Below are positions 26,080 through 58,014 of a stretch of DNA of 64,000 nt, one piece after another (the stretch's first letter is position 1; every line of letters begins with the position of its first letter). This DNA is from Aurantimonas coralicida DSM 14790 (GTDB lineage Bacteria; Pseudomonadota; Alphaproteobacteria; Rhizobiales; Rhizobiaceae), in NCBI RefSeq assembly GCF_000421645.1, contig NZ_ATXK01000003.1:248001-312000 (forward strand). The letters run 5' to 3'. A model generated the notes under the pieces. It did no database searches. It saw only the letters and a program-made list of their open reading frames with translations, and was not told the origin of the DNA. Position numbers and translations under genes: made by a program.

Positions 26080-27051
26080 ATGACCAGCATCAATACCAAT
26101 ATCGCGGCCATGGCGGCCTTGCAGACGCTGCAGGCGACCAACCGGTCGATGGATGCGACCCAGAACCGCATCTCGACGGGCTACCGTGTCGCCGAAGCCA
26201 AGGACAATGCCGCCTATTGGTCGATCGCCACGACCATGCGCTCGGACAACAAGGCCCTGTCGGCAGTCGAGGACTCGCTGGGTCTCGGCGCCGCGAAGGT
26301 CGACATCGCCTACACCGCGCTCGAAAGCGCCATCGACGTGGTCGACGAGATCAAGGCAAAGCTGGTCGCGGCCAGCGAGCCGGGTGTCGACAAGACCAAG
26401 ATCCAGTCGGAAATCAGCGAGCTGAAGAAGCAGCTTCAGAGCATCGCGTCCTCCGCCTCGTTCTCCGGCGAGAACTGGCTACAGAACGACGCCGCGGCCG
26501 CCGCCGGCTCCAAGGACATCGTCGCCTCCTTCAACCGCGACTCCACCGGCTCGGTCTCGATCGGCACGATCACCGTCGACGTGTCGGCGATGACCCTGAT
26601 CGGAACGGACAACGAGACCACCGGCGTTCTGACCAAGACCTATGATTCCGACGCGCTGCTCGCCACGCCAACCGGCACTCCCGTGAACTACCGGCTGATC
26701 GACGTGCCGGGCGAGACCACGGCCGCGGCCGGTACGGTGATCGAACTCGATAGCGCGACGACCCCGGCCGAAGTGAACGCCATGGTTCGCGTCGTGGACA
26801 AGATTCTGACCGACATGACCAATGTCGCCGCCAATCTCGGCGCGGCCAAGTCACGCATCGAGCTGCAGCAGAACTTCGTCTCCAGCCTGACCGACTCCAT
26901 TTCGTCGGGCATCGGCGCGCTGGTGGATGCGGACATGACCGAGGAATCGACCCGGCTGAAGGCACTGCAGACGCAGCAGCAGCTCGGCGTGCAGGCGCTG
27001 TCGATCGCCAATTCCTCGAGCCAGGCGATCCTGCAGCTCTTCCAGAACTAA
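26080..27051 (+). CDS. fla: Flagellin 1 (divergent copy)
   Basis: This 323-aa filament protein opens MTSINTNIAAMAALQTLQATNRSMDATQNRISTGYRV, less like the other seven copies, which share MTALQSLS. The C-terminal helix ends ADMTEESTRLKALQTQQQLGVQALSIANSSSQAILQLFQN instead of LFR. Its central domain (MTLIGTDNETTGVLTK, LLATPTGTPVNYRLIDV, VNAMVRVVDKIL) is close to that of flagellin 8, although the two genes are the first and last of the array. It may form the base segment of a complex filament. Confidence 0.97.
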   Translation: MTSINTNIAAMAALQTLQATNRSMDATQNRISTGYRVAEAKDNAAYWSIATTMRSDNKALSAVEDSLGLGAAKVDIAYTALESAIDVVDEIKAKLVAASEPGVDKTKIQSEISELKKQLQSIASSASFSGENWLQNDAAAAAGSKDIVASFNRDSTGSVSIGTITVDVSAMTLIGTDNETTGVLTKTYDSDALLATPTGTPVNYRLIDVPGETTAAAGTVIELDSATTPAEVNAMVRVVDKILTDMTNVAANLGAAKSRIELQQNFVSSLTDSISSGIGALVDADMTEESTRLKALQTQQQLGVQALSIANSSSQAILQLFQN

Positions 27052-27249: not shown

Positions 27250-27363
27250 CATAGCGATGCGTTCCACCTTGCAGGTCGGGAACGTAGGGCATGATGCCGT
27301 CTCGCTATGCCGGCCAACCCGGACTGTCCCCCCATTCAGTTTTCCGCGTTACGGGACATCATC
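27250..27363 (+). ncRNA. Structured flagellin leader, copy 2
   Basis: P1 pairs CATAGCGA (27250-27257) with TCGCTATG (27302-27309) by Watson-Crick pairs only. Inside are P2 (GCGTTCC with GGGAACG) and P3 (GGCATGATGCC, 27288-27298). Further on, GTCCC (27326-27330) can pair with GGGAC (27353-27357), which ends six bases before the start codon. The P2 arm has a sequence unlike the other copies but still pairs, which is covariation support. Confidence 0.65.
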
Positions 27364-28257
27364 ATGACCTCGATCAACACCAACGTGTCGGCAATGACGG
27401 CTCTCCAGAGCCTGTCGATGATCAACAGCAACCTCAACGAGACGCAGAGCCGCATCTCGACCGGCTACCGCGTCAACGCGGCGTCCGACAACGCCGCCTA
27501 CTGGTCGATCGCCACGACCATGCGATCGGACAACAAGGCGCTTGGCGCCGTCGAGGACGCGCTCGGCCTCGGCCAGGCCAAGCTGGACACCGCCTATACC
27601 GGCATGAAGGCCGCCATCGACGTGGTCGACGAGATCAAGGCGAAGCTGGTTGCCGCGCGCGAGCCGGGCGTCGACAAGACCAAGATCCAGGCGGAAATCA
27701 CCGAGTTGCAGGGCCAGCTCACCTCGATCGCGACCTCGGCCTCCTTCTCGGGCGAGAACTGGCTGTCGATCGGCACCGGCATCGTGGCCGGCACCAAGAC
27801 GATCGTGTCCTCGTTCAACCGCGCGGCCGACGCCTCGGTTTCGGTCAGCACCATCGGCGTCGACACCACCAAGACGAAGTTGTTCGATTTCGACAACAAC
27901 GACGGCATTCTGGACGTCGGACGCACCAACGGCACCGTCGTCTCCACCTTCACGATCACCGGTGCCACGGCAGACAACGTCATCTCCGCCATGATTTCGG
28001 ACGTGGACGAGGCGCTGCAGGCGATGACGACGGCCGCCTCGAACCTCGGCGCCGCCAAGAACCGCGTCGACATCCAGTCGGAATTCGTCTCGACCCTGCG
28101 CGACTCCATCGAGAAGGGCGTCGGCACGCTGGTCGATGCGGACATGACCGAAGAGTCGACCCGCCTGAAGGCGCTGCAGACGCAGCAGCAGCTGGGCGTC
28201 CAGGCGCTGTCGATCGCCAACTCCTCCTCGGAATCGCTGCTGGCGCTCTTCCGCTAA
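27364..28257 (+). CDS. fla: Flagellin 2
   Basis: This 297-aa flagellin starts at ATG 27364; the in-frame extension to 27307 lies in the structured leader. The terminal helices match the common type (MTSINTNVSAMTALQSLSMINSNLNETQSRISTGYRVNAASDNAAYWS and NLGAAKNRVDIQSEFVSTLRDSIEKG), with SSSESLLALFR at the end. The short central part (VDTTKTKLFDFDNNDGILDVGRTNGTVVSTF) is of the same class as in flagellins 5 and 7. It is secreted through the type III pore to form the filament. Confidence 0.97.
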   Translation: MTSINTNVSAMTALQSLSMINSNLNETQSRISTGYRVNAASDNAAYWSIATTMRSDNKALGAVEDALGLGQAKLDTAYTGMKAAIDVVDEIKAKLVAAREPGVDKTKIQAEITELQGQLTSIATSASFSGENWLSIGTGIVAGTKTIVSSFNRAADASVSVSTIGVDTTKTKLFDFDNNDGILDVGRTNGTVVSTFTITGATADNVISAMISDVDEALQAMTTAASNLGAAKNRVDIQSEFVSTLRDSIEKGVGTLVDADMTEESTRLKALQTQQQLGVQALSIANSSSESLLALFR

Positions 28258-28284
28258 GACACCACCCACAACTACTGAGATCGA

Positions 28285-28315
28285 CGGGTCCGGCCGCAAG
28301 GCCGGGCCCGTTTTG
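28285..28315 (+). terminator. Common flagellin terminator, copy 2
   Basis: CGGGTCCGGCC and GGCCGGGCCCG pair around a GCAA tetraloop and are followed by TTTT. The 30-bp core is repeated after flagellins 3 to 8. Confidence 0.9.
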
Positions 28316-28417
28316 CGTTGCAGGCGGTCTCTGTCGGACAGGGCAGGAATGCCCACCGCCCGGTGACGGAAAGCGGCGCAATCCGGCCTGCGTCAGAAAT
28401 TGCTGGAAACAGAAAGC

Positions 28418-28446
28418 GTTAACCACCTTCCTTAGGTGCTTGGTAG
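28418..28446 (+). promoter_or_regulatory. Flagellin upstream module, copy 3
   Basis: GTTAAC, eight bases, TTAGG, then GGTAG at the end give a 29-bp module located 51 bp before the leader P1. The same geometry is kept before flagellins 4 to 8. It is a candidate activator site and -35 region. Confidence 0.5.
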
Positions 28447-28468
28447 CCAGCTACTGGCATGGTGTGCC

Positions 28469-28577
28469 TATAGCGAGGTGGCCGATCGTTCAGGGGCCAC
28501 GGGCATGATGCCGTTTCGTTATGCCGGCCGATCCGGACTGTCCCCCTGTTCATTTTTCTGCGTTACGGGACACCATC
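28469..28577 (+). ncRNA. Structured flagellin leader, copy 3
   Basis: P1 pairs TATAGCGA (28469-28476) with TCGTTATG (28516-28523) using wobble pairs. P2 is GTGGCC with GGCCAC, perfect. P3 is GGCATGATGCC. GTCCC and GGGAC pair across the last 40 bases before ATG 28578. Confidence 0.65.
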
Positions 28578-29537
28578 ATGACCTCGATCAACACCAATAC
28601 GTCGGCGATGACGGCTCTCCAGAGCCTGTCGATGATCAACAGCAACCTCGACGAGACCCAGAACCGCATCTCGACCGGCTTCCGCGTCGGTGCGGCATCC
28701 GACAACGCCGCCTATTGGTCGATCGCCACCACCATGCGCTCGGACAACAAGGCGCTCGGCGCTGTCGAGGACGCACTCGGCCTTGGCCAGGCGAAGGTCG
28801 ACACCGCTTACACCGGTATGAAAGCCGCCATCGACGTCGTCGATGAGATGAAAGCGAAGCTCGTCGCAGCGCGTGAGCCGGGCGTCGACAAGACCAAGAT
28901 CCAGGCCGAAATTACCGAACTGCAGGGCCAGCTGACATCGATTGCGACCTCGGCATCGTTCTCGGGCGAGAACTGGCTGTCGGTCGATTCCACGGCACCG
29001 GCCAACGCCACCAAGTCGGTCGTCGCCTCCTTCAACCGTGACAGCGCAGGCGCCGTCTCCGTCGGCACGATCGAGATCGACACCTCGAAGACCAAGCTGT
29101 TCGATGCGGCCACGGATGCGGCGTCTGCCGGTACCGGCATCCTCGATGGCAAGTACAGCGCGGCCAACGGCAGCTACCTTGCCACTCAGACCGACCCTGG
29201 CTTTACCGTCTCGACCCTCAACATCTCGGCCCTGACGGACGCTGCCGGCGACGTGACGACGCTGAACTCCTACATCAGCGGTGTCGACGACGCCCTCCAG
29301 CGGATGACGACGGCTGCCTCGAACCTCGGCGCCGCCAAGAGCCGCATGGATATCCAGTCGGAGTTCGTCTCCAACCTGCGCGATTCCATCGAGAAGGGTG
29401 TCGGCACGCTGGTCGATGCGGACATGACGGAAGAGTCGACCCGCCTGAAGGCGCTGCAGACGCAGCAGCAGCTGGGCGTCCAGGCGCTGTCGATCGCCAA
29501 CTCCTCCTCGCAGTCGCTGCTGTCGCTCTTCCGCTAA
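28578..29537 (+). CDS. fla: Flagellin 3
   Basis: This 319-aa flagellin starts at ATG 28578; the frame extends upstream to 28521 only within the leader. The ends are of the common type, and the C-terminus reads SSSQSLLSLFR, shared with copies 5 to 7. The central domain is longer and distinct (KLFDAATDAASAGTGILDGKYSAANGSYLATQTDPGF followed by ISALTDAAGDVTTLNSYISGVDD). It is therefore a separate surface variant on a shared filament core. Confidence 0.97.
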   Translation: MTSINTNTSAMTALQSLSMINSNLDETQNRISTGFRVGAASDNAAYWSIATTMRSDNKALGAVEDALGLGQAKVDTAYTGMKAAIDVVDEMKAKLVAAREPGVDKTKIQAEITELQGQLTSIATSASFSGENWLSVDSTAPANATKSVVASFNRDSAGAVSVGTIEIDTSKTKLFDAATDAASAGTGILDGKYSAANGSYLATQTDPGFTVSTLNISALTDAAGDVTTLNSYISGVDDALQRMTTAASNLGAAKSRMDIQSEFVSNLRDSIEKGVGTLVDADMTEESTRLKALQTQQQLGVQALSIANSSSQSLLSLFR

Positions 29538-29564
29538 CACACGACAACCCGACACTGAGATCGA

Positions 29565-29595
29565 CGGGTCCGGCCGCAAGGCCGGGCCCGTTTTT
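29565..29595 (+). terminator. Common flagellin terminator, copy 3
   Basis: This is the same CGGGTCCGGCC-GCAA-GGCCGGGCCCG hairpin followed by TTTTT. The preceding GACACTGAGATCGA is also shared with copy 5. Confidence 0.9.
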
Positions 29596-29700
29596 GCATG
29601 CGCGGATAGGCGGCCGGCAGGGGCTTAATGAGATGACCGTCATCGATGGCAGGATAGTTGCAACTTGCTATGGTTTCGAATTTGCGTTGAAAAAGAATAC

Positions 29701-29729
29701 GTTAACCACCTTCCTTAGGCGCTTGGTAG
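29701..29729 (+). promoter_or_regulatory. Flagellin upstream module, copy 4
   Basis: GTTAAC-CACCTTCC-TTAGG and a closing GGTAG give exactly 29 bp, 51 bp from start to the leader P1. It is nearly identical to the copy 3 module. Confidence 0.5.
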
Positions 29730-29751
29730 CCAGCCGCTGGCATGTTGCGGG

Positions 29752-29854
29752 CATAGCGAGGTGGCCGGTCGGGCCACGGGCATGACGCCGTTTCGCTATC
29801 CCGGCCAGCCCGGACTGTCCCCCCTGTTCATTTTCCGCGTTACGGGACACCAAT
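29752..29854 (+). ncRNA. Structured flagellin leader, copy 4
   Basis: P1 pairs CATAGCGA (29752-29759) with TCGCTATC (29793-29800), seven of eight pairs. P2 is GTGGCC-GGTCG-GGCCAC, perfect. P3 (GGCATGACGCC) is weakened to GGC/GCC. The GTCCC/GGGAC stem is kept. This is the shortest leader of the group. Confidence 0.6.
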
Positions 29855-30817
29855 ATGACCTCGATCAACACCAACGTGTCGGCGATGACGGCTCTCCAGA
29901 GCCTGTCGATGATCAACAGCAATCTCGACGAGACCCAGAACCGCATTTCGACCGGCTTCCGCGTCGGTGCGGCTTCCGACAACGCCGCCTACTGGTCGAT
30001 CGCCACCACGATGCGTTCGGACAACAAGGCGCTCGGCGCGGTCGAAGACGCGCTCGGCCTCGGCCAGGCGAAGGTCGACACGGCCTATACCGGCATGAAG
30101 GCTGCCATCGACGTTGTCGACGAGATCAAGACCAAGCTGGTTGCCGCGCGCGAGCCTGGCGTCGATCGCAACAAGATCCAGTCGGAGATCGCCGAACTGA
30201 AGAACCAGCTGACGTCGATCTCCGAGTCGGCGTCGTTCTCCGGCGAGAACTGGCTGAATTTCGACGGTGCGGCCGTCACCAAGAACGTCGTCGCCTCGTT
30301 CAACCGCAGCAGCGCCGGCGCCGTCTCGGTCGGAACGATCGCCATCGACGCCTCGGCCGTGAAGCTGATCGGCACCGACGGTGCCGCGACCGATGACGGC
30401 ATCCTCAACAAGGATGCGCTGATCGGTGACGATGCCACGAAGATCGCCGGCAACGTCATGGACATCGACATCAGCACGGCAGTCCTCGACCAGGCCGCGG
30501 TGGATGCTGCCTACCTGGGGGCCGAGACCGTCGAGACCGTCATCGACGCGATGATCACGAATGTCGATACGGCGCTGAAGAGCATGACGACCGCAGCCTC
30601 CAATCTCGGTGCTGCCCAGAGCCGCATGGATATCCAGTCGGAGTTCGTCTCCAACCTGCGCGATTCCATCGAGAAGGGTGTCGGCACGCTGGTCGATGCG
30701 GACATGACCGAAGAATCGACCCGCCTGAAGGCGCTGCAGACGCAGCAGCAGCTCGGCGTCCAGGCGCTGTCGATCGCCAACTCGTCCTCGCAGTCGCTGA
30801 TGTCGCTGTTCCGCTAA
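29855..30817 (+). CDS. fla: Flagellin 4
   Basis: This 320-aa flagellin has an N-terminus nearly identical to flagellin 3 up to about residue 90, but the middle has changed to LKNQLTSISESASFSGENWLNFDG. The variable domain is unique (SAVKLIGTDGAATDDGILNKDALIGDDATKIAGNVMDIDISTAVLDQAAVDAAYLG). It ends SSSQSLMSLFR. Confidence 0.97.
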   Translation: MTSINTNVSAMTALQSLSMINSNLDETQNRISTGFRVGAASDNAAYWSIATTMRSDNKALGAVEDALGLGQAKVDTAYTGMKAAIDVVDEIKTKLVAAREPGVDRNKIQSEIAELKNQLTSISESASFSGENWLNFDGAAVTKNVVASFNRSSAGAVSVGTIAIDASAVKLIGTDGAATDDGILNKDALIGDDATKIAGNVMDIDISTAVLDQAAVDAAYLGAETVETVIDAMITNVDTALKSMTTAASNLGAAQSRMDIQSEFVSNLRDSIEKGVGTLVDADMTEESTRLKALQTQQQLGVQALSIANSSSQSLMSLFR

Positions 30818-30844
30818 TCCGGAACGCAGTCATTCTGAAGCGAA

Positions 30845-30875
30845 CGGGTCCGGCCGCAAGGCCGGGCCCGTTTTG
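30845..30875 (+). terminator. Common flagellin terminator, copy 4
   Basis: CGGGTCCGGCC-GCAA-GGCCGGGCCCG followed by TTTT. The bases before the hairpin (CGAA) match copy 8 rather than copies 2, 3 and 5. Confidence 0.9.
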
Positions 30876-30949
30876 CGTTTGGGGGAGGGGCAGCCCGCAT
30901 CTTAGCATTTGATTCAGGATGAACTTTGAAGCGAAAGTCGGCAGACGCC

Positions 30950-30978
30950 GTTAACTATCAAACTTAAGTAGTGAGTAG
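30950..30978 (+). promoter_or_regulatory. Flagellin upstream module, copy 5
   Basis: GTTAAC-TATCAAAC-TTAAG and a closing GAGTAG variant keep the 29-bp geometry, 51 bp before the leader P1. Confidence 0.48.
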
Positions 30979-31000
30979 GCCCGGCGGCGCAAGGTAGCGC

Positions 31001-31112
31001 CATAGCGAGGTGACGGGCGTAGGGAACGCCGGTCACGGGCATGATGCCGCTTCGTTATACCGGCCGGCCCGGACTGTCCCCTGTTTGAAATTCCGCGTTA
31101 CGGGACAACACC
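31001..31112 (+). ncRNA. Structured flagellin leader, copy 5
   Basis: P1 pairs CATAGCGA (31001-31008) with TCGTTATA (31052-31059), seven of eight pairs. P2 is GTGAC-G-GGCGT against ACGCC-G-GTCAC, a ten-pair arm with one G/G mismatch. P3 and the GTCCC/GGGAC stem are intact. Confidence 0.65.
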
Positions 31113-32006
31113 ATGACCTCGATCAATACCAATACTTCGGCCATGACGGCGCTGCAGAGCCTGTCGGCGATCAACAGCAGCCTCGACGAGACCCAGAACC
31201 GCATCTCGACCGGTTACCGCGTCGGTGCGGCGTCCGACAACGCGGCCTACTGGTCGATCGCCACGACTATGCGCTCCGACAACAAGGCGCTCGGCGCCGT
31301 CGAAGACGCCCTCGGTCTCGGCCAGGCCAAGGTCGACACGGCCTATACCGGCATGACCGCCGCGATCGACGTGGTCGACGAGATCAAGACCAAGCTGGTT
31401 GCGGCGCGCGAGCCGGGTGTCGACAAGACCAAGATCCAGTCCGAAATCAAGGAACTGCAGGGTCAGCTGACCTCGATCGCGTCCTCCGCCTCGTTCTCGG
31501 GCGAGAACTGGCTGTCGATCGGCACGGGTATCACGGCCGGCACCAAGAATGTCGTTGCCTCGTTCAACCGCGCCGCTGACGGCACGGTCTCGGTCGGCAC
31601 CATCGGCGTCGACACCACCAAGACCAAACTGTTCGATACCGACGGTACGAACGGCATCCTGGACGGTGCGCGCTCGGGATCGACCGTCGTGTCGACGCTG
31701 GCGCTGACCGGTGCGACCAGCGACGCGGACATCTCGACGATGATCTCGGACGTCGACGAAGCGATCGGGCTGATGACGACCGCCGCCTCGAACCTCGGCG
31801 CCGCCAAGAGCCGCATGGATATCCAGTCGGAGTTCGTCTCCAACCTGCGCGATTCCATCGAGAAGGGTGTCGGCACGCTGGTCGATGCGGACATGACGGA
31901 AGAGTCGACCCGGCTGAAGGCGCTGCAGACGCAGCAGCAGCTGGGCGTCCAGGCGCTGTCGATCGCCAACTCCTCCTCGCAGTCGCTGCTGTCGCTCTTC
32001 CGCTAA
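31113..32006 (+). CDS. fla: Flagellin 5
   Basis: This 297-aa flagellin shares MTALQSLSAINSSLD with copies 6 and 8. Its short central domain (VDTTKTKLFDTDGTNGILDGARSGSTVVSTLALTGATSD) belongs with copies 2 and 7. The C-terminal ~75 residues equal those of flagellin 3 almost exactly. Copy 5 looks like a mosaic of ends from one group and a centre from another. Confidence 0.97.
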   Translation: MTSINTNTSAMTALQSLSAINSSLDETQNRISTGYRVGAASDNAAYWSIATTMRSDNKALGAVEDALGLGQAKVDTAYTGMTAAIDVVDEIKTKLVAAREPGVDKTKIQSEIKELQGQLTSIASSASFSGENWLSIGTGITAGTKNVVASFNRAADGTVSVGTIGVDTTKTKLFDTDGTNGILDGARSGSTVVSTLALTGATSDADISTMISDVDEAIGLMTTAASNLGAAKSRMDIQSEFVSNLRDSIEKGVGTLVDADMTEESTRLKALQTQQQLGVQALSIANSSSQSLLSLFR

Positions 32007-32033
32007 CACACGACAACTCGACACTGAGATCGA

Positions 32034-32064
32034 CGGGTCCGGCCGCAAGGCCGGGCCCGTTTTC
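32034..32064 (+). terminator. Common flagellin terminator, copy 5
   Basis: CGGGTCCGGCC-GCAA-GGCCGGGCCCG followed by TTTT, with the same upstream GACACTGAGAT as copy 3. Confidence 0.9.
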
Positions 32065-32144
32065 GCGTGAGGGGAGGGCATGTGGCCGGCCGGACCCTTA
32101 GCAATTCATTCAGGATGGCGCACGAAGCAGCCTCTGCCGAAGTC

Positions 32145-32173
32145 GTTAACCAACAACCTTAAGTAGCCGGTAG
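32145..32173 (+). promoter_or_regulatory. Flagellin upstream module, copy 6
   Basis: GTTAAC-CAACAACC-TTAAG and closing GGTAG span 29 bp, 52 bp before the leader P1. A GCCGATGG lies about 15 bp after TTAAG, which superficially recalls a sigma28 -10 box but is not conserved in the other copies. Confidence 0.5.
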
Positions 32174-32196
32174 CTGATGCCGGCCGATGGTGTCCC

Positions 32197-32306
32197 CATA
32201 GCGAGGTGACGGGCGTAGATCGCCGGTCACGGGCATGATGCCGCTTCGTTATGCCGGCCGATCCGGACTGTCCCCTGTTTGAAATTCCGCGTTACGGGAC
32301 AACACA
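32197..32306 (+). ncRNA. Structured flagellin leader, copy 6
   Basis: P1 pairs CATAGCGA (32197-32204) with TCGTTATG (32246-32253), all eight bases with one G/U. P2 is GTGAC-G-GGCG against CGCC-G-GTCAC. P3 GGCATGATGCC and the GTCCC/GGGAC stem are present. Confidence 0.65.
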
Positions 32307-33194
32307 ATGACCTCTATCAACACCAATACGTCGGCAATGACGGCTCTGCAGAGCCTGTCGGCGATCAACAGCAGCCTCGACCAGACCCAGAACCGCATCT
32401 CCACCGGCTACCGCGTCGGTGCGGCGTCGGACAATGCCGCCTACTGGTCGATCGCGACCACGATGCGCTCGGACAACAAGGCGCTCGGCGCGGTCGAAGA
32501 CGCCCTTGGCCTTGGCCAGGCGAAGGTCGACACGGCCTACACCGGCATGACCGCCGCCATCGACGTCGTCGATGAGATGAAGGCGAAGCTGGTCGCCGCC
32601 AAGGAGCCGGGCGTCGACAAGACCAAGATCCAGTCCGAACTCAAGGAGCTTCAGGGACAGCTGAAGTCCATCGCGACGGCGGCCTCCTTCTCCGGCGAGA
32701 ACTGGCTGGCAACGGACAACACCGCGAGCCGCTCAATCGTCGCCTCCTTCAACAGGGATTCCGGTGGAAACGTCAGCGTCGGCACCATTAGCGTTGCCGT
32801 AACGTCGACCCAGCTGATGGATGCAGCTGGCGCCGCCGGTGGAACCCTCGGTACCAATGGTGCGGCCAGCGGCGTTTCCGTGCTCGCGATGGACATCTCG
32901 GCGGCCAACGATACCGCGCTGACAAACATGATCACCGACGTCGATACGGCGATCAAGACCATGACGACGGCCGCCTCGAACCTCGGCGCTGCCAAGAACC
33001 GCATGGACATCCAGTCGGAGTTCGTCTCCAACCTGCGTGACTCCATCGAGAAGGGTGTGGGCACGCTGGTCGATGCCGACATGACGGAAGAGTCGACCCG
33101 CCTGAAGGCGCTGCAGACACAGCAGCAGCTGGGCGTCCAGGCGCTGTCGATCGCCAACTCCTCTTCGCAGTCACTGCTGTCGCTCTTCCGTTAG
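32307..33194 (+). CDS. fla: Flagellin 6
   Basis: This 295-aa flagellin is the shortest of the array. Its N-terminus (SAINSSLDQTQNRISTGYRVGAASDN) is identical to flagellin 8 over a long stretch. The central domain is unique (VAVTSTQLMDAAGAAGGTLGTNGAASGVSVLAMDISAAND). It ends SSSQSLLSLFR. Confidence 0.97.
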   Translation: MTSINTNTSAMTALQSLSAINSSLDQTQNRISTGYRVGAASDNAAYWSIATTMRSDNKALGAVEDALGLGQAKVDTAYTGMTAAIDVVDEMKAKLVAAKEPGVDKTKIQSELKELQGQLKSIATAASFSGENWLATDNTASRSIVASFNRDSGGNVSVGTISVAVTSTQLMDAAGAAGGTLGTNGAASGVSVLAMDISAANDTALTNMITDVDTAIKTMTTAASNLGAAKNRMDIQSEFVSNLRDSIEKGVGTLVDADMTEESTRLKALQTQQQLGVQALSIANSSSQSLLSLFR

Positions 33195-33221
33195 GACACG
33201 ACACCTCGACACTGAGATAGA

Positions 33222-33252
33222 CGGGTCCGGCCGCAAGGCCGGGCCCGTTTTC
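33222..33252 (+). terminator. Common flagellin terminator, copy 6
   Basis: CGGGTCCGGCC-GCAA-GGCCGGGCCCG followed by TTTT. It is preceded by GAGATAGA, as in copy 7. Confidence 0.9.
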
Positions 33253-33343
33253 GCGTTGATGCGGGCGCTTATTGTCGCGATTGCGCAAGGTTTCATTAGA
33301 GCTTGATTCAGGATCGCGAGGCAAAGACCGAAGCGGATCCGGC

Positions 33344-33372
33344 GTTAACTCTCAAACTTAAGTAGCCGGTAG
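33344..33372 (+). promoter_or_regulatory. Flagellin upstream module, copy 7
   Basis: GTTAAC-TCTCAAAC-TTAAG and closing GGTAG span 29 bp, 52 bp before the leader P1. Confidence 0.5.
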
Positions 33373-33395
33373 TCGATGCCGGCCGAAGGTGCCCC

Positions 33396-33506
33396 CATAG
33401 CGAGGTGGCCGATGAAGAGATCGTCGCTCACGGGCATGATGCCGCTTCGTTATGCCGGCCAATCCGGACTGTCCCCTGTTTGAAATCCGCGTTACGGGAC
33501 AACACA
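33396..33506 (+). ncRNA. Structured flagellin leader, copy 7
   Basis: P1 pairs CATAGCGA (33396-33403) with TCGTTATG (33447-33454). P2 is GTGGCCGATGA-AGAGA-TCGTCGCTCAC, eleven positions with one C/C mismatch. P3 and the GTCCC/GGGAC stem are intact. Confidence 0.65.
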
Positions 33507-34424
33507 ATGACCTCGATCAATACCAATACTTGGGCGATGACGGCTCTGCAGAGCCTGTCGGCGATCAACAACAGTCTCGACCAGACCCAGAGCCGCATCT
33601 CCACCGGCTACCGCGTTGGTGCAGCCTCTGACAACGCCGCCTACTGGTCGATCGCAACCACGATGCGCTCGGACAACAAGGCGCTCGGCGCCGTGCAGGA
33701 CGCGCTTGGCCTCGGCCAGGCGAAGGTCGACACGGCCTACACCGGCATGATCGACGTGGTCGACGAAATCAAGTCGAAGCTTGTCGCCGCGCGCGAGCCC
33801 GGTGTCGACAAGACCAAGATCAACTCCGAAATCAAGGAGCTGCAGGGCCAGCTCACGTCGATCGCTTCCTCCGCGTCTTTTTCGGGCGAGAACTGGCTGT
33901 CGGTCAACAGCGGTGCCGCGGGCTACACGGCGACGAAGTCCGTCGTGTCGTCGTTCAACCGCGACAGCGCCGGCGCGGTCTCGGTCGGCACCATCGGCGT
34001 CGACACGTCGAAGACGAAGCTGTTCGACTCGAACGGCGCGGCCGGTATCCTCGACACGGGTCGCACGGGTCGCACGGGTCGCACGGGTCGCACGGGTGGC
34101 ACGGTTGTCTCCACCTTCACGCTGACCGGTGCCACCACCGACGCGAACATCTCCACCATGATCTCGGACGTGGACGAGGCCCTCGGTGCGATGACGACGG
34201 CCGCCTCGAACCTCGGCGCTGCCAAGAACCGCATGGACATCCAGTCGGAGTTCGTCTCCAACCTGCGTGACTCCATCGAGAAGGGTGTAGGCACGCTGGT
34301 CGATGCGGACATGACGGAAGAGTCGACCCGCCTGAAGGCCCTGCAGACGCAGCAGCAGCTGGGCGTCCAGGCGCTGTCGATCGCCAACTCCTCCTCGCAG
34401 TCGCTGCTGTCGCTCTTCCGCTAA
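33507..34424 (+). CDS. fla: Flagellin 7, with in-frame GRT repeat
   Basis: This 305-aa flagellin starts at ATG 33507; the extension to 33405 is leader. It differs from all sisters in three ways. Trp replaces Ser in NTWAMTALQ. Three residues are missing in TGMIDVVDEIKSK, where the others have TGMxAAIDVV. Its central domain holds TGRTGRTGRTGRTGG from a 9-bp tandem repeat. The rest of the centre resembles copies 2 and 5. It may be under relaxed selection, but the frame is fully open. Confidence 0.96.
   Translation: MTSINTNTWAMTALQSLSAINNSLDQTQSRISTGYRVGAASDNAAYWSIATTMRSDNKALGAVQDALGLGQAKVDTAYTGMIDVVDEIKSKLVAAREPGVDKTKINSEIKELQGQLTSIASSASFSGENWLSVNSGAAGYTATKSVVSSFNRDSAGAVSVGTIGVDTSKTKLFDSNGAAGILDTGRTGRTGRTGRTGGTVVSTFTLTGATTDANISTMISDVDEALGAMTTAASNLGAAKNRMDIQSEFVSNLRDSIEKGVGTLVDADMTEESTRLKALQTQQQLGVQALSIANSSSQSLLSLFR
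34055..34104 (+). repeat. 9-bp tandem repeat in flagellin 7
   Basis: The unit GCACGGGTC (frame-preserving, coding Gly-Arg-Thr) is repeated four times, flanked by partial units (ACACGGGTC before, GCACGG after). The paralogues have a single GRT-like position here. Slippage would change the surface loop in steps of three residues without breaking the frame. Confidence 0.9.
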
Positions 34425-34451
34425 CACACGACAACTCGACACTGAGATAGA

Positions 34452-34482
34452 CGGGTCCGGCCGCAAGGCCGGGCCCGTTTTC
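34452..34482 (+). terminator. Common flagellin terminator, copy 7
   Basis: CGGGTCCGGCC-GCAA-GGCCGGGCCCG followed by TTTT. Confidence 0.9.
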
Positions 34483-34580
34483 GCGTCTGTGCATGGCGCT
34501 TGCCGAAGTATTTTCGGCAGATGCGAGTTTCTTAATGGATCGTTCACGATGACCGCGATCCGAACCGGATCTGCCGCCGC

Positions 34581-34609
34581 GTTAACCAATGAATTTAAGC
34601 AGCCGGTAG
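34581..34609 (+). promoter_or_regulatory. Flagellin upstream module, copy 8
   Basis: GTTAAC-CAATGAAT-TTAAG and closing GGTAG span 29 bp, 52 bp before the leader P1. Confidence 0.5.
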
Positions 34610-34632
34610 TCGATGCCGTTCGAAGGTGCCCT

Positions 34633-34744
34633 CATAGCGAGGTGGCCGGTGAAGAGATCGTCGGTCACGGGCATGATGCCGCTTCGTTATGCCGGCCGAT
34701 CCGGACTGTCCCCTGTTTGAAATTCCGCGTTACGGGACAACACA
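34633..34744 (+). ncRNA. Structured flagellin leader, copy 8
   Basis: P1 pairs CATAGCGA (34633-34640) with TCGTTATG (34684-34691). P2 is GTGGCCGGTGA-AGAGA-TCGTCGGTCAC, eleven consecutive pairs with G/U wobbles. P3 GGCATGATGCC and the GTCCC/GGGAC stem are intact. It is the best-formed copy. Confidence 0.68.
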
Positions 34745-35716
34745 ATGACCTCTATCAACACCAATACGTCGGCAATGACGGCTCTGCAGAGCCTGTCGGC
34801 GATCAACAGCAGCCTCGACCAGACCCAGAACCGCATATCGACCGGCTACCGCGTCGGTGCGGCGTCGGACAATGCCGCCTACTGGTCGATCGCCACGACC
34901 ATGCGCTCGGACAACAAGGCCCTCGGAGCCGTCGAAGACGCGCTCGGCCTTGGCCAGGCGAAGGTCGACGTGGCCTATACGGGCATGGAAGCGGCGATCG
35001 ACGTCACCTCCGAGATCAAGGCCAAGCTTCTGGCGGCGATCGAGCCGGGCGTCGACAAGACCAAGATCAACTCGGAACTGACCGAGCTGAAGAACCAGCT
35101 GTCGAGCATCGCGTCTTCGGCGAGCTTCTCGGGCGAGAACTGGCTGCAGAACTCGACCGCGACCGCAGCCGGCACCAAGAACGTCGTGTCGTCGTTCAAC
35201 CGCGACAGCGGCGGCGCCGTTTCGGTGGGCACCATCGGCCTGAACGTTTCCAGCATGACGCTGATCGGCACGGACAACGAGACCCTGGGTCTTCTGACCA
35301 AGGACTACGATGCCGACCAGTTGCTGGCCACGCCGACGGGCACGCCGGAAAACTATCGATTGATCGATGTTGCCGGTACTCAGTCGGTAGCAGCCACGGG
35401 TACGGTGATCGCTCTCGCCAGCACCACAACGGATGCACAGGTGAATGCCATGGTGCGCGTCGTCGACAAGATCCTTTCGGACATGACAACCGCAGCGTCC
35501 AACCTGGGTGCCTCCAAGAACCGCATGGATATCCAGTCGGAGTTCGTCTCCAACCTGCGGAACTCCATCGACAAGGGCGTCGGTACGCTGGTCGATGCGG
35601 ACATGACCGAGGAGTCGACCCGGCTGAAGGCGCTGCAGACGCAGCAGCAGCTGGGCGTCCAGGCGCTGTCGATCGCCAACTCGTCCTCGCAGTCGGTGCT
35701 GTCGCTCTTCCGTTAA
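34745..35716 (+). CDS. fla: Flagellin 8
   Basis: This 323-aa flagellin has an N-terminus identical to flagellin 6 but a central domain like flagellin 1 (MTLIGTDNETLGLLTK, LLATPTGTPENYRLIDV, VNAMVRVVDKILSDM). It ends SSSQSVLSLFR. The mix of ends from one group and centre from another is best explained by recombination within the array. Confidence 0.97.
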   Translation: MTSINTNTSAMTALQSLSAINSSLDQTQNRISTGYRVGAASDNAAYWSIATTMRSDNKALGAVEDALGLGQAKVDVAYTGMEAAIDVTSEIKAKLLAAIEPGVDKTKINSELTELKNQLSSIASSASFSGENWLQNSTATAAGTKNVVSSFNRDSGGAVSVGTIGLNVSSMTLIGTDNETLGLLTKDYDADQLLATPTGTPENYRLIDVAGTQSVAATGTVIALASTTTDAQVNAMVRVVDKILSDMTTAASNLGASKNRMDIQSEFVSNLRNSIDKGVGTLVDADMTEESTRLKALQTQQQLGVQALSIANSSSQSVLSLFR

Positions 35717-57205: not shown

Positions 57206-57553
57206 ATGTATCAGTTCTCATACGCGGAAGTGGCGCAGGACATCGAAGTCGATGCCCGTGAGCGCGAGCGGCAGGCGCTCGATCATTCGATCGAACAGCT
57301 GAAGAAAGCCGATGCCGAGGGGCCACGTTCGCGTGCGGCGATCGAAGCGATCTACACCACCCGCAGCCTCTGGGCGCTGGTGATCGAGGATTTGGCCAGC
57401 GCCGACAACGGCCTGCCCGAGGCGCTGCGCGCCGAGCTGATCTCGATCGGCCTGTGGATCATGCGCGAGGCCGAAGCCATCCGTCTCGGCAAGTCCGAGA
57501 ACTTCAAGGGCATCATCGAGATCACGACCCTCATCCGCGAAGGCTTGAAATAA
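57206..57553 (+). CDS. flaF: Flagellar biosynthesis regulator FlaF
   Basis: This 115-aa helical protein (YAEVAQDIEVDARERERQALDHSIEQLKKA to LISIGLWIMREAEAIRLGKSENFKGIIEIT) is the FlaF family. In Caulobacter, FlaF is required for flagellin translation and acts opposite to FlbT; in other alphaproteobacteria it also helps secretion. It lies two bases before flbT, next to the hook-junction genes, which fits a role in coupling hook completion to flagellin synthesis. Confidence 0.93.
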   Translation: MYQFSYAEVAQDIEVDARERERQALDHSIEQLKKADAEGPRSRAAIEAIYTTRSLWALVIEDLASADNGLPEALRAELISIGLWIMREAEAIRLGKSENFKGIIEITTLIREGLK

Positions 57554-57555
57554 CC

Positions 57556-58014
57556 ATGGCAAGTTTGCGCATCACCCTGCGGGCAGGCGAACGGATCTTC
57601 GTCAACGGGGCCGTCCTGAAGGTCGACCGCAAGACCACGCTGGAATTCCTCAACGACGTGACCTTCCTCCTCGAAAGCCATGTGATGCAGGCCGAGGATG
57701 CCACGACCCCGCTGCGCCAGCTCTACTTCATCGTCCAGATGATGCTGATCGAGCCGGGCAGCGCCGAGGCCGCCCGCGAGCTCTTCGGCACCACCCACGC
57801 GGCGATGATCGGCACCTACCGCAATCGCGACATCATCGAGGGCCTCATCGAGATCAAGGAACTGGTCGGCCGCGAGCGCAATTTCGAGGCGCTCAAGGGA
57901 CTGCGGACGCTGATCCCGATCGAGGACGGCGTCATCCAGGGGCAGGGCGAGGCGCGCGCGCCGGTCGTCCCCCACACACCCGAACTGCGGCTTGCCGCCG
58001 GAGGAATGCGATGA
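57556..58014 (+). CDS. flbT: Flagellin mRNA regulator FlbT
   Basis: This 152-aa protein starts at ATG 57556 (the frame extends upstream as a shadow of flaF). The body LRITLRAGERIFVNGAVLKVDRKTTLEFLNDVTFLLESHVMQAEDATTPLRQLYFIVQMML is the FlbT family. In Caulobacter, FlbT associates with the 5' UTR of a flagellin mRNA and promotes its decay until the hook is complete. The structured leaders of flagellins 2 to 8 are its natural candidate targets here. Confidence 0.95.
   Translation: MASLRITLRAGERIFVNGAVLKVDRKTTLEFLNDVTFLLESHVMQAEDATTPLRQLYFIVQMMLIEPGSAEAARELFGTTHAAMIGTYRNRDIIEGLIEIKELVGRERNFEALKGLRTLIPIEDGVIQGQGEARAPVVPHTPELRLAAGGMR

Follow-up and report, generated by a model that had tools for sequence, protein, structure and literature searches.

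A recurring RNA fold of constant shape and changing letters points to a possible new control switch in bacterial motility

In the 4.6-Mb genome of Aurantimonas coralicida DSM 14790, eight flagellin genes are arranged in tandem within a 64-kb window (the whole stretch analysed, 64,000 nt of contig C3, NZ_ATXK01000003.1; coordinates below are positions in this window unless a contig is named). Seven of them, fla2 to fla8, are each preceded by a leader RNA of 103–114 nt that runs up to the flagellin ATG. Comparison with leaders from other genomes showed that selection maintains two of its helices, the closing stem and the second arm, as RNA structure of the coding strand. With moderate confidence, and on the basis of sequence comparison, the leader is read here as a cis-regulatory RNA of the Hyphomicrobiales that would be transcribed from CtrA-driven motility promoters and would control the start of translation.

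Architecture of the leader RNA

Three models were used in the searches. R1 was built from the seven window leaders; R2 from 82 flagellin leaders (a set of 159 minus 12 odd ones, thinned to 103, with 22 dropped by hand, several of them for having no TGTCCC, and one window leader added); and R3 from the core only, with ten non-flagellin leaders in its training set, whose R3 scores are thus not independent, and five further leaders omitted. The E values of all three are rough. R1 returned the seven leaders, the same ones it was built from, at E values of 6e-23 to 1e-16 in their own genome, and R2 matched each of them:

27250..27363, + strand: fla2 leader RNA, 114 nt; R2 match in its own genome at 6.4e-14
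28469..28577, + strand: fla3 leader RNA, 109 nt; R2 match
29752..29854, + strand: fla4 leader RNA, 103 nt; R2 match
31001..31112, + strand: fla5 leader RNA, 112 nt; R2 match
32197..32306, + strand: fla6 leader RNA, 110 nt, the reference for the parts; R2 match
33396..33506, + strand: fla7 leader RNA, 111 nt; R2 match
34633..34744, + strand: fla8 leader RNA, 112 nt; R2 match

The seven leaders share their parts in the order described in the initial annotation of this stretch. Aligning 82 diverse leaders gave the order as a 7-pair closing stem, a second arm, a third arm, the return strand of the closing stem, a CCGG-N-CCGG hairpin, UGUCCC, a spacer and the Shine-Dalgarno sequence, with the closing stem and the second and third arms forming a three-way junction. 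The CCGG hairpin after the junction, and UGUCCC with its complementary GGGAC Shine-Dalgarno, had been absent from that description. In the fla6 leader the parts are located as follows:

32198..32204, + strand: closing stem, 5′ strand, pairing with 32246–32252; six of its pairs covary at E<0.05
32206..32230, + strand: second arm, a variable hairpin; both covariation tests gave one pair here at E<0.05
32232..32242, + strand: third arm, a GGC-AUGAN-GCC hairpin; C-A-U-G-A invariant in 82/82 and 93/93 aligned leaders
32246..32252, + strand: closing stem, 3′ strand, pairing with 32198–32204
32254..32266, + strand: CCGG-N5-CCGG hairpin, 3′ of the junction; outer pair at E=0.1
32270..32274, + strand: GUCCC, candidate anti-Shine-Dalgarno (anti-SD), able to pair with 32296–32300
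32296..32300, + strand: GGGAC, Shine-Dalgarno region, 6 nt before the fla6 ATG

The third arm, earlier given as GGCATGATGCC, is indeed a hairpin; its fourth pair (A-U) was rejected, as it is not kept across the leader alignment, and because the fifth loop base varies freely, a GGC/GCC stem of 3 bp closed by the loop AUGAN describes the arm better. The loop is AUGA in 200 of 201 flagellin leaders and AUCA or AUUA in several more distant relatives, thus the loop consensus is AUNA. The same relatives indicate that the AUG is not needed, and an upstream open reading frame (ORF) starting from it was rejected on these grounds. An alternative pairing, between UGUC and the third arm's GGCA strand, showed no co-change on inspection by eye and was set aside.

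Outside the AUNA loop and the CCGG hairpin few bases are invariant: the second arm varies in length between leaders, the junction linkers vary, and the closing-stem letters differ widely, being CATAGCGA/TCGTTATG in the window and AACGAACG/CGTTCGTT in Sinorhizobium meliloti. Even the CCGG hairpin carries other letters with its pairing kept at four loci (L299, L301, L327 and L246; judged by eye at loci found with the structure model). At L246, in a 1.5-Mb genome of the same family (G097), the leader is AT-rich (36% GC), has GCUGC/GCAGC in place of the CCGG hairpin, and was found by R2 and missed by R3. An eighth leader of the A. coralicida genome lies outside the window (contig C12:130453-130557, locus L006) before a further flagellin; its third arm is GAC-AUGAU-GUC, with both stem sides altered.

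Covariation and distribution

Covariation was assessed with our own script, written in the manner of R-scape as a substitute for it. A sequence-only MAFFT alignment and a FastTree tree were produced, parsimony substitutions were moved to random columns on the same branches to yield 60 null alignments, and a G statistic with average product correction was computed for 5778 column pairs. For 159 leaders of <85% identity, none of which was left out, seven pairs had E<0.05: the second arm contributed one and the closing stem six. Ranked eighth was the outer pair of the CCGG hairpin (E=0.1). Since these loci had partly been found with the structure model, the test was repeated on 121 leaders retrieved with a DNA pattern restricted to the loop hairpin, the CCGG hairpin and TGTCC. 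Three of the 5778 pairs then had E<0.05, one from the second arm and the other two from the closing stem, and the top eight pairs of the ranking were without exception within predicted helices. The closing stem and second arm thus covary above the phylogenetic background, and in both sets the comparison with the tree-based null rules out chance or recent duplication as the sole cause. The initial annotation had proposed a selected RNA fold beyond recent duplication, and the wider alignment bears this out.

Across the 82 aligned leaders, 91.2% of cells were paired, 18 of 25 pairs had changed on both sides, and each of the seven closing-stem pairs had done so in at least one leader; the covariation score was 0.313, against a mean of 0.158 in shuffles and 0.054–0.114 when slid. 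Furthermore, G-U cells outnumbered A-C cells both in the closing stem (77 versus 17) and in the second arm (57 versus 32), so that the folded strand is the coding strand, as would be expected of an RNA rather than of a DNA palindrome. No covariation was shown in these tree-null tests for the third arm or the anti-SD pair, both of which hardly vary.

The window itself carries less of this proof. The G-C to G-U changes reported earlier in the closing stem are present, but within the window they are one-sided only, and an end mismatch is found in fla4; moreover, minimum-energy folding of single sequences gave no junction for fla2 and a different second arm for fla7. Therefore the seven paralogs alone do not prove the fold, and the proof comes from other genomes.

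Matches to R1 were found in all eight genomes of the genus (A. coralicida included) and in 102 of 199 genomes of the family (E<=0.1), and matches to R2 in 78 of 297 genomes of the order (E<=0.01). In a sample of the class (n=385), seven genomes matched R2, two within the order and five outside it; the latter matches (L222–L226) were weak, at 24–34 bits, and no flagellin was found downstream of them by profile search, their genes being otherwise judged by eye. Of the 212 distinct R1 hits, 203 have a flagellin downstream on their own strand (two of these, for which no start codon was found, were dropped before alignment); of the other nine, four extend to the edge of the retrieved sequence and five appear to be chance matches. 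A DNA pattern search of named genomes returned at least 118 stretches. Rhizobium, Ensifer/Sinorhizobium, Agrobacterium, Ochrobactrum, Mesorhizobium, Aminobacter, Nitratireductor, Hyphomicrobium, Filomicrobium, Lichenibacterium and a metagenome-assembled genome (MAG) of the Methylobacteriaceae are among the matches listed, as is one Planctomycetaceae MAG, behind whose match no flagellin lies. As judged from the matches in this class sample of 385 genomes, the leader is, as a flagellin element, so far found only in Hyphomicrobiales.

Promoters, targets and predicted control of translation

A CtrA-like box precedes most of the leaders, typically some 38 nt before the stem. In the window it is exemplified by one site, read from the sequence:

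34595..34609, + strand: CtrA-like box TTAA-N7-GTAG, beginning 38 nt upstream of the fla8 stem

With the upstream stretch anchored on the stem and boxes scored as TTAA-N7-TTAA-like (at least six of eight positions), 99 of 159 flagellin leaders carry a box, compared with 21% of shuffles, and in 75 of these 99 it starts at −42 to −37. There is also a weak A/T preference at −10/−11, which would fit a −10 element. From the box position and this preference, transcription likely starts at about the first base of the closing stem, and the fold would then be the 5′ end of the message. For the two leaders at locus L177 of S. meliloti strain 4H41, the predicted starts would lie about 126 and 110 nt upstream of the ATG. 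The promoter assignment agrees with S. meliloti, for which passages of PMC4433202 report CtrA binding upstream of flaA and mcpZ and list flaA, flaB, flaC and four mcp genes as direct targets, and passages of PMC3616915 record CtrA motifs for flaA, flaC and flaD.

Flagellins, named as the targets in the initial annotation, are the main ones, yet that title proved too narrow, as chemoreceptor and GGDEF/EAL genes carry the element upstream as well. Although no leader other than those of flagellins was used to build it, R2 scored 37–52 bits before chemoreceptor genes at seven loci (L241, L242, L229, L230, L231, L232 and L233), all above the best value outside the order (34.1 bits); R2 matches of 10–19 bits, most of them opposite a stronger match on the other strand, were set aside as chance. 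R3 was run on three genome sets: 40 chosen ones, 99 from one family and 60 from a second. From the model matches, not all of which were fetched, 60 loci (L229–L248 and L288–L327) were picked as lying away from the main flagellin arrays or as otherwise odd, and these comprise 29 flagellin and 31 non-flagellin loci. By Pfam, 26 of the 31 are motility, chemotaxis or cyclic di-GMP (c-di-GMP) signalling genes, a proportion that describes hand-chosen odd loci and not their frequency. Twenty encode methyl-accepting chemotaxis proteins, six of which carry a protoglobin domain; the others encode a CheA-type kinase, a STAS protein and, in four cases, GGDEF and/or EAL proteins. The reading frame opens past the first leader base in 23 of the 26, and in the remaining three (L241, L233 and L315) it is open through the leader, with start codons downstream of it. 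A CtrA-like box was found for 22 of the 26 (19% of shuffles), and 18 of these 22 boxes begin at −41 to −36. Two loci harbour the core RNA as a complete tandem duplicate, with different stem letters in each copy: L301 (127–190 and 198–263) before a GGDEF/EAL gene and L300 (2540–2676, minus strand) before a flagellin.

In flagellin leaders the complementarity of UGUCCC to the Shine-Dalgarno sequence is most simply read as control of translation start. GGGAC or GGGGC was found in 139 of 159 leaders and ends 6–9 nt upstream of the start codon in 110 of them. Each of the five anti-SD/SD positions can pair in 91–98% of the 159 leaders; the R2 set gave 96–100%, an upper figure since that set was culled partly for missing TGTCCC. 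In 99 of 129 scorable leaders the computed probability of this pairing was 0.5 or higher, and of the 41 leaders recovered by means other than the pattern demanding TGTCC, 31 contain that sequence. In most flagellin leaders, then, UGUCCC just 3′ of the fold could close the Shine-Dalgarno sequence, and the ribosome site would be closed by default. A factor recognising the core, with the AUNA loop as its probable contact, would either open the site or keep it closed, and flagellin output would thereby be tied to the state of the flagellum or to the cell cycle.

For the flagellin leaders the best candidate for such a factor is FlbT. Passages of PMC7591256 describe that in Caulobacter FlbT acts jointly with FljJ, a flagellin, to repress translation of the remaining flagellin messages, and the review PMC4347634, in part, that FlbT promotes decay of its target messages in Caulobacter and is a proposed activator in Brucella, the mechanism being called unresolved there. 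In both genera the relatives of FlbT act on flagellin mRNA leaders. The leader is what an FlbT-responsive element would be expected to be, namely a flagellin 5′ untranslated region (5′ UTR) in FlbT-encoding genomes, given that 203 of 212 hits lie before a flagellin and 45 of 46 leader-bearing genomes encode FlbT. FlbT is a less obvious candidate where the leader precedes chemoreceptor and GGDEF/EAL genes, and a different protein or a small molecule may act there; we know of no link between chemoreceptor leaders and FlbT, which argues against FlbT as the only partner. Control by CsrA was rejected: CsrA was found in none of 66 genomes (46 of them leader-bearing), while the same search found it in three control genomes.

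Several results weigh against parts of this interpretation. As for the fold, the outer pair of the third arm reached a probability of 0.5 in only 66 of 124 single leaders by energy-based folding, and from the alignment of 159 leaders RNAalifold recovered no more than the third arm plus six pairs of the closing stem. As for the anti-SD pairing, 30 of the 129 scored leaders fell below 0.5, a further 30 of the 159 were not scorable, and the pair does not covary, being too conserved and TGTCC having been demanded by the pattern for most of the set. As for the wider targets, six of the first 13 non-flagellin loci score 28–35 bits with R2, in the range of chance hits outside the order (24–34 bits), and five of the 31 non-flagellin loci are not motility genes: L303, L318 and L244 have no motility gene downstream by Pfam, and at L321 and L323 the match falls in an intergenic repeat that has no loop hairpin. 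FlbT, finally, is also encoded in 11 of 20 genomes without a leader match and was not found in one genome (G455) whose leader-like element (36.6 bits with R2, 31.4 bits with R3) precedes a GGDEF/EAL gene, so that FlbT does not track the RNA exactly. The repeat at L321 carries CCCGGCGAAAGCCGGGATCCA; both L321 and L323 are false matches to the core model.

The flagellin genes and the flaF and flbT genes of the window are:

26080..27051, + strand: fla1, flagellin without leader; Pfam PF00669/PF00700; no match to the leader models
27364..28257, + strand: fla2, flagellin
28578..29537, + strand: fla3, flagellin
29855..30817, + strand: fla4, flagellin
31113..32006, + strand: fla5, flagellin
32307..33194, + strand: fla6, flagellin
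33507..34424, + strand: fla7, flagellin
34745..35716, + strand: fla8, flagellin
57206..57553, + strand: flaF; Pfam PF07309, 4.2e-32
57556..58014, + strand: flbT, candidate trans-acting partner; Pfam PF07378, 1.9e-39 on the ORF 57454–58014; predicted start codon

The start codons of fla3 (28578) and fla7 (33507) are corrected here relative to the initial annotation. Upstream of fla1 the region differs and matches neither R1 nor R2; as a guess, this leaderless gene may be a candidate FljJ-like regulatory flagellin. In fla7, at about 34055–34100, a short 9-base tandem repeat adds Thr-Gly-Arg repeats to the variable region. Near-identical terminator hairpins lie 3′ of flagellins (28253–28319, 29533–29599, 32002–32068, 33191–33256 and 34420–34486) and match the small RNA families BjrC68 and CC0196 below threshold; these two families may themselves be flagellin-type 3′ ends.

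Alternative explanations and relation to known systems

Two alternatives retain some weight beside the preferred reading. The leader could be a riboswitch, its core binding a small molecule, possibly a second messenger of motility, with the downstream part as expression platform. The constant core followed by variable sequence would suit this, as would the complete tandem copies at L301 and L300, and the flagellin, chemoreceptor and GGDEF/EAL targets are like the known targets of c-di-GMP riboswitches. Yet few bases are invariant beyond the AUNA loop and the CCGG hairpin and the linkers of the junction vary, no Rfam family matches the leaders (Rfam includes the c-di-GMP classes), and a protein mechanism through FlbT is already reported for flagellins in relatives; we regard a riboswitch as doubtful. 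A passive stabiliser, in which a stable structure at the 5′ end merely shields abundant messages from decay, appears slightly less probable again. It would fit the predicted transcription start at the stem, a second arm that keeps its pairing and not its sequence, and main targets, the flagellins, that are highly expressed. A mere clamp, however, would have no need of a near-invariant AUNA loop and a conserved CCGG hairpin, nor of a conserved UGUCCC opposite the Shine-Dalgarno sequence, and the element also occurs before GGDEF/EAL and single chemoreceptor genes, whose messages need not be abundant.

The other two alternatives fare far worse. That the arms are DNA sites, that is, regulator palindromes, is suggested by their being inverted repeats with a CtrA-like box just upstream; it is very improbable given that stem letters change with pairing kept and that G-U exceeds A-C in the closing stem by 77 to 17. 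Least credible of all, and rejected, is membership of the flg-Rhizobiales RNA family (RF01736), the nearest named RNA known to us, which shares the order and the flagellar gene context, as its gathering cut-off (55 bits) was reached in none of 38 genomes of the family (best 26 bits) and R3 scored at most 10.7 bits on 15 RF01736 loci, with no cross-recognition.

RF01736 had no match in the whole window; in a sample of 150 genomes of the order, 18 matched it at E<=0.001 and three reached the cut-off. Nine RF01736 loci that were read lie before a flgF-like gene (by eye, no family search). Three members before such a gene (L328–L330, in G312, G237 and G343; also by eye) have repeated TTGGGAGA stretches, and CsrA was not found in G237. 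Against Rfam 15 as a whole, no family matched the leaders of the window and 34 loci at gathering or relaxed thresholds, apart from a single chance-level overlap with SNORD39. No description of this leader was found in the open-licence literature searched; these two results accord with the statement in the initial annotation that no earlier description was known.

A broader version can be offered tentatively, as possible rather than probable: a riboswitch-like class, so far seen only in Hyphomicrobiales, that marks the CtrA-activated motility regulon and places flagellins, chemoreceptors (globin-coupled ones included), the che operon and c-di-GMP enzymes under one RNA sensor, sometimes in tandem, with one ligand or protein setting translation of the whole set at the motile-to-sessile switch. 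How flagellin translation is tied to flagellum assembly is poorly settled in alphaproteobacteria outside Caulobacter, and an RNA with defined bases to mutate, present in S. meliloti among others, offers a direct way to test this. Should chemoreceptor and GGDEF/EAL messages prove to be governed by the same RNA, it would represent a post-transcriptional layer over the CtrA motility regulon that is invisible to transcription studies.

Among known systems, the c-di-GMP riboswitches have a similar set of target genes and tandem copies, whereas the leaders here are without an Rfam match. The FlbT-controlled 5′ UTR of Caulobacter flagellin mRNA is likewise a flagellin 5′ UTR serving as a post-transcriptional control site (passages of PMC7591256 and PMC4347634). 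The leader described here differs in that it was not found before flagellins outside the order in the 385-genome class sample, in that it also occurs on non-flagellin genes, and in that no published structure of this shape was seen. CsrA–FliW control of flagellin also acts post-transcriptionally via the leader (PMC4894983, in part), but CsrA was found in none of the 66 genomes, and the conserved loop is AUNA, not GGA. The flg-Rhizobiales RNA is again a structured RNA before flagellar genes of the same order (Weinberg 2010, PMC2864571, and PMC3765529, passages); it has another sequence and three stem-loops (PMC3765529, in part) and lies before a flgF-like gene (by eye). Set beside these systems, the leader is a new family within the structured cis-regulatory leaders.

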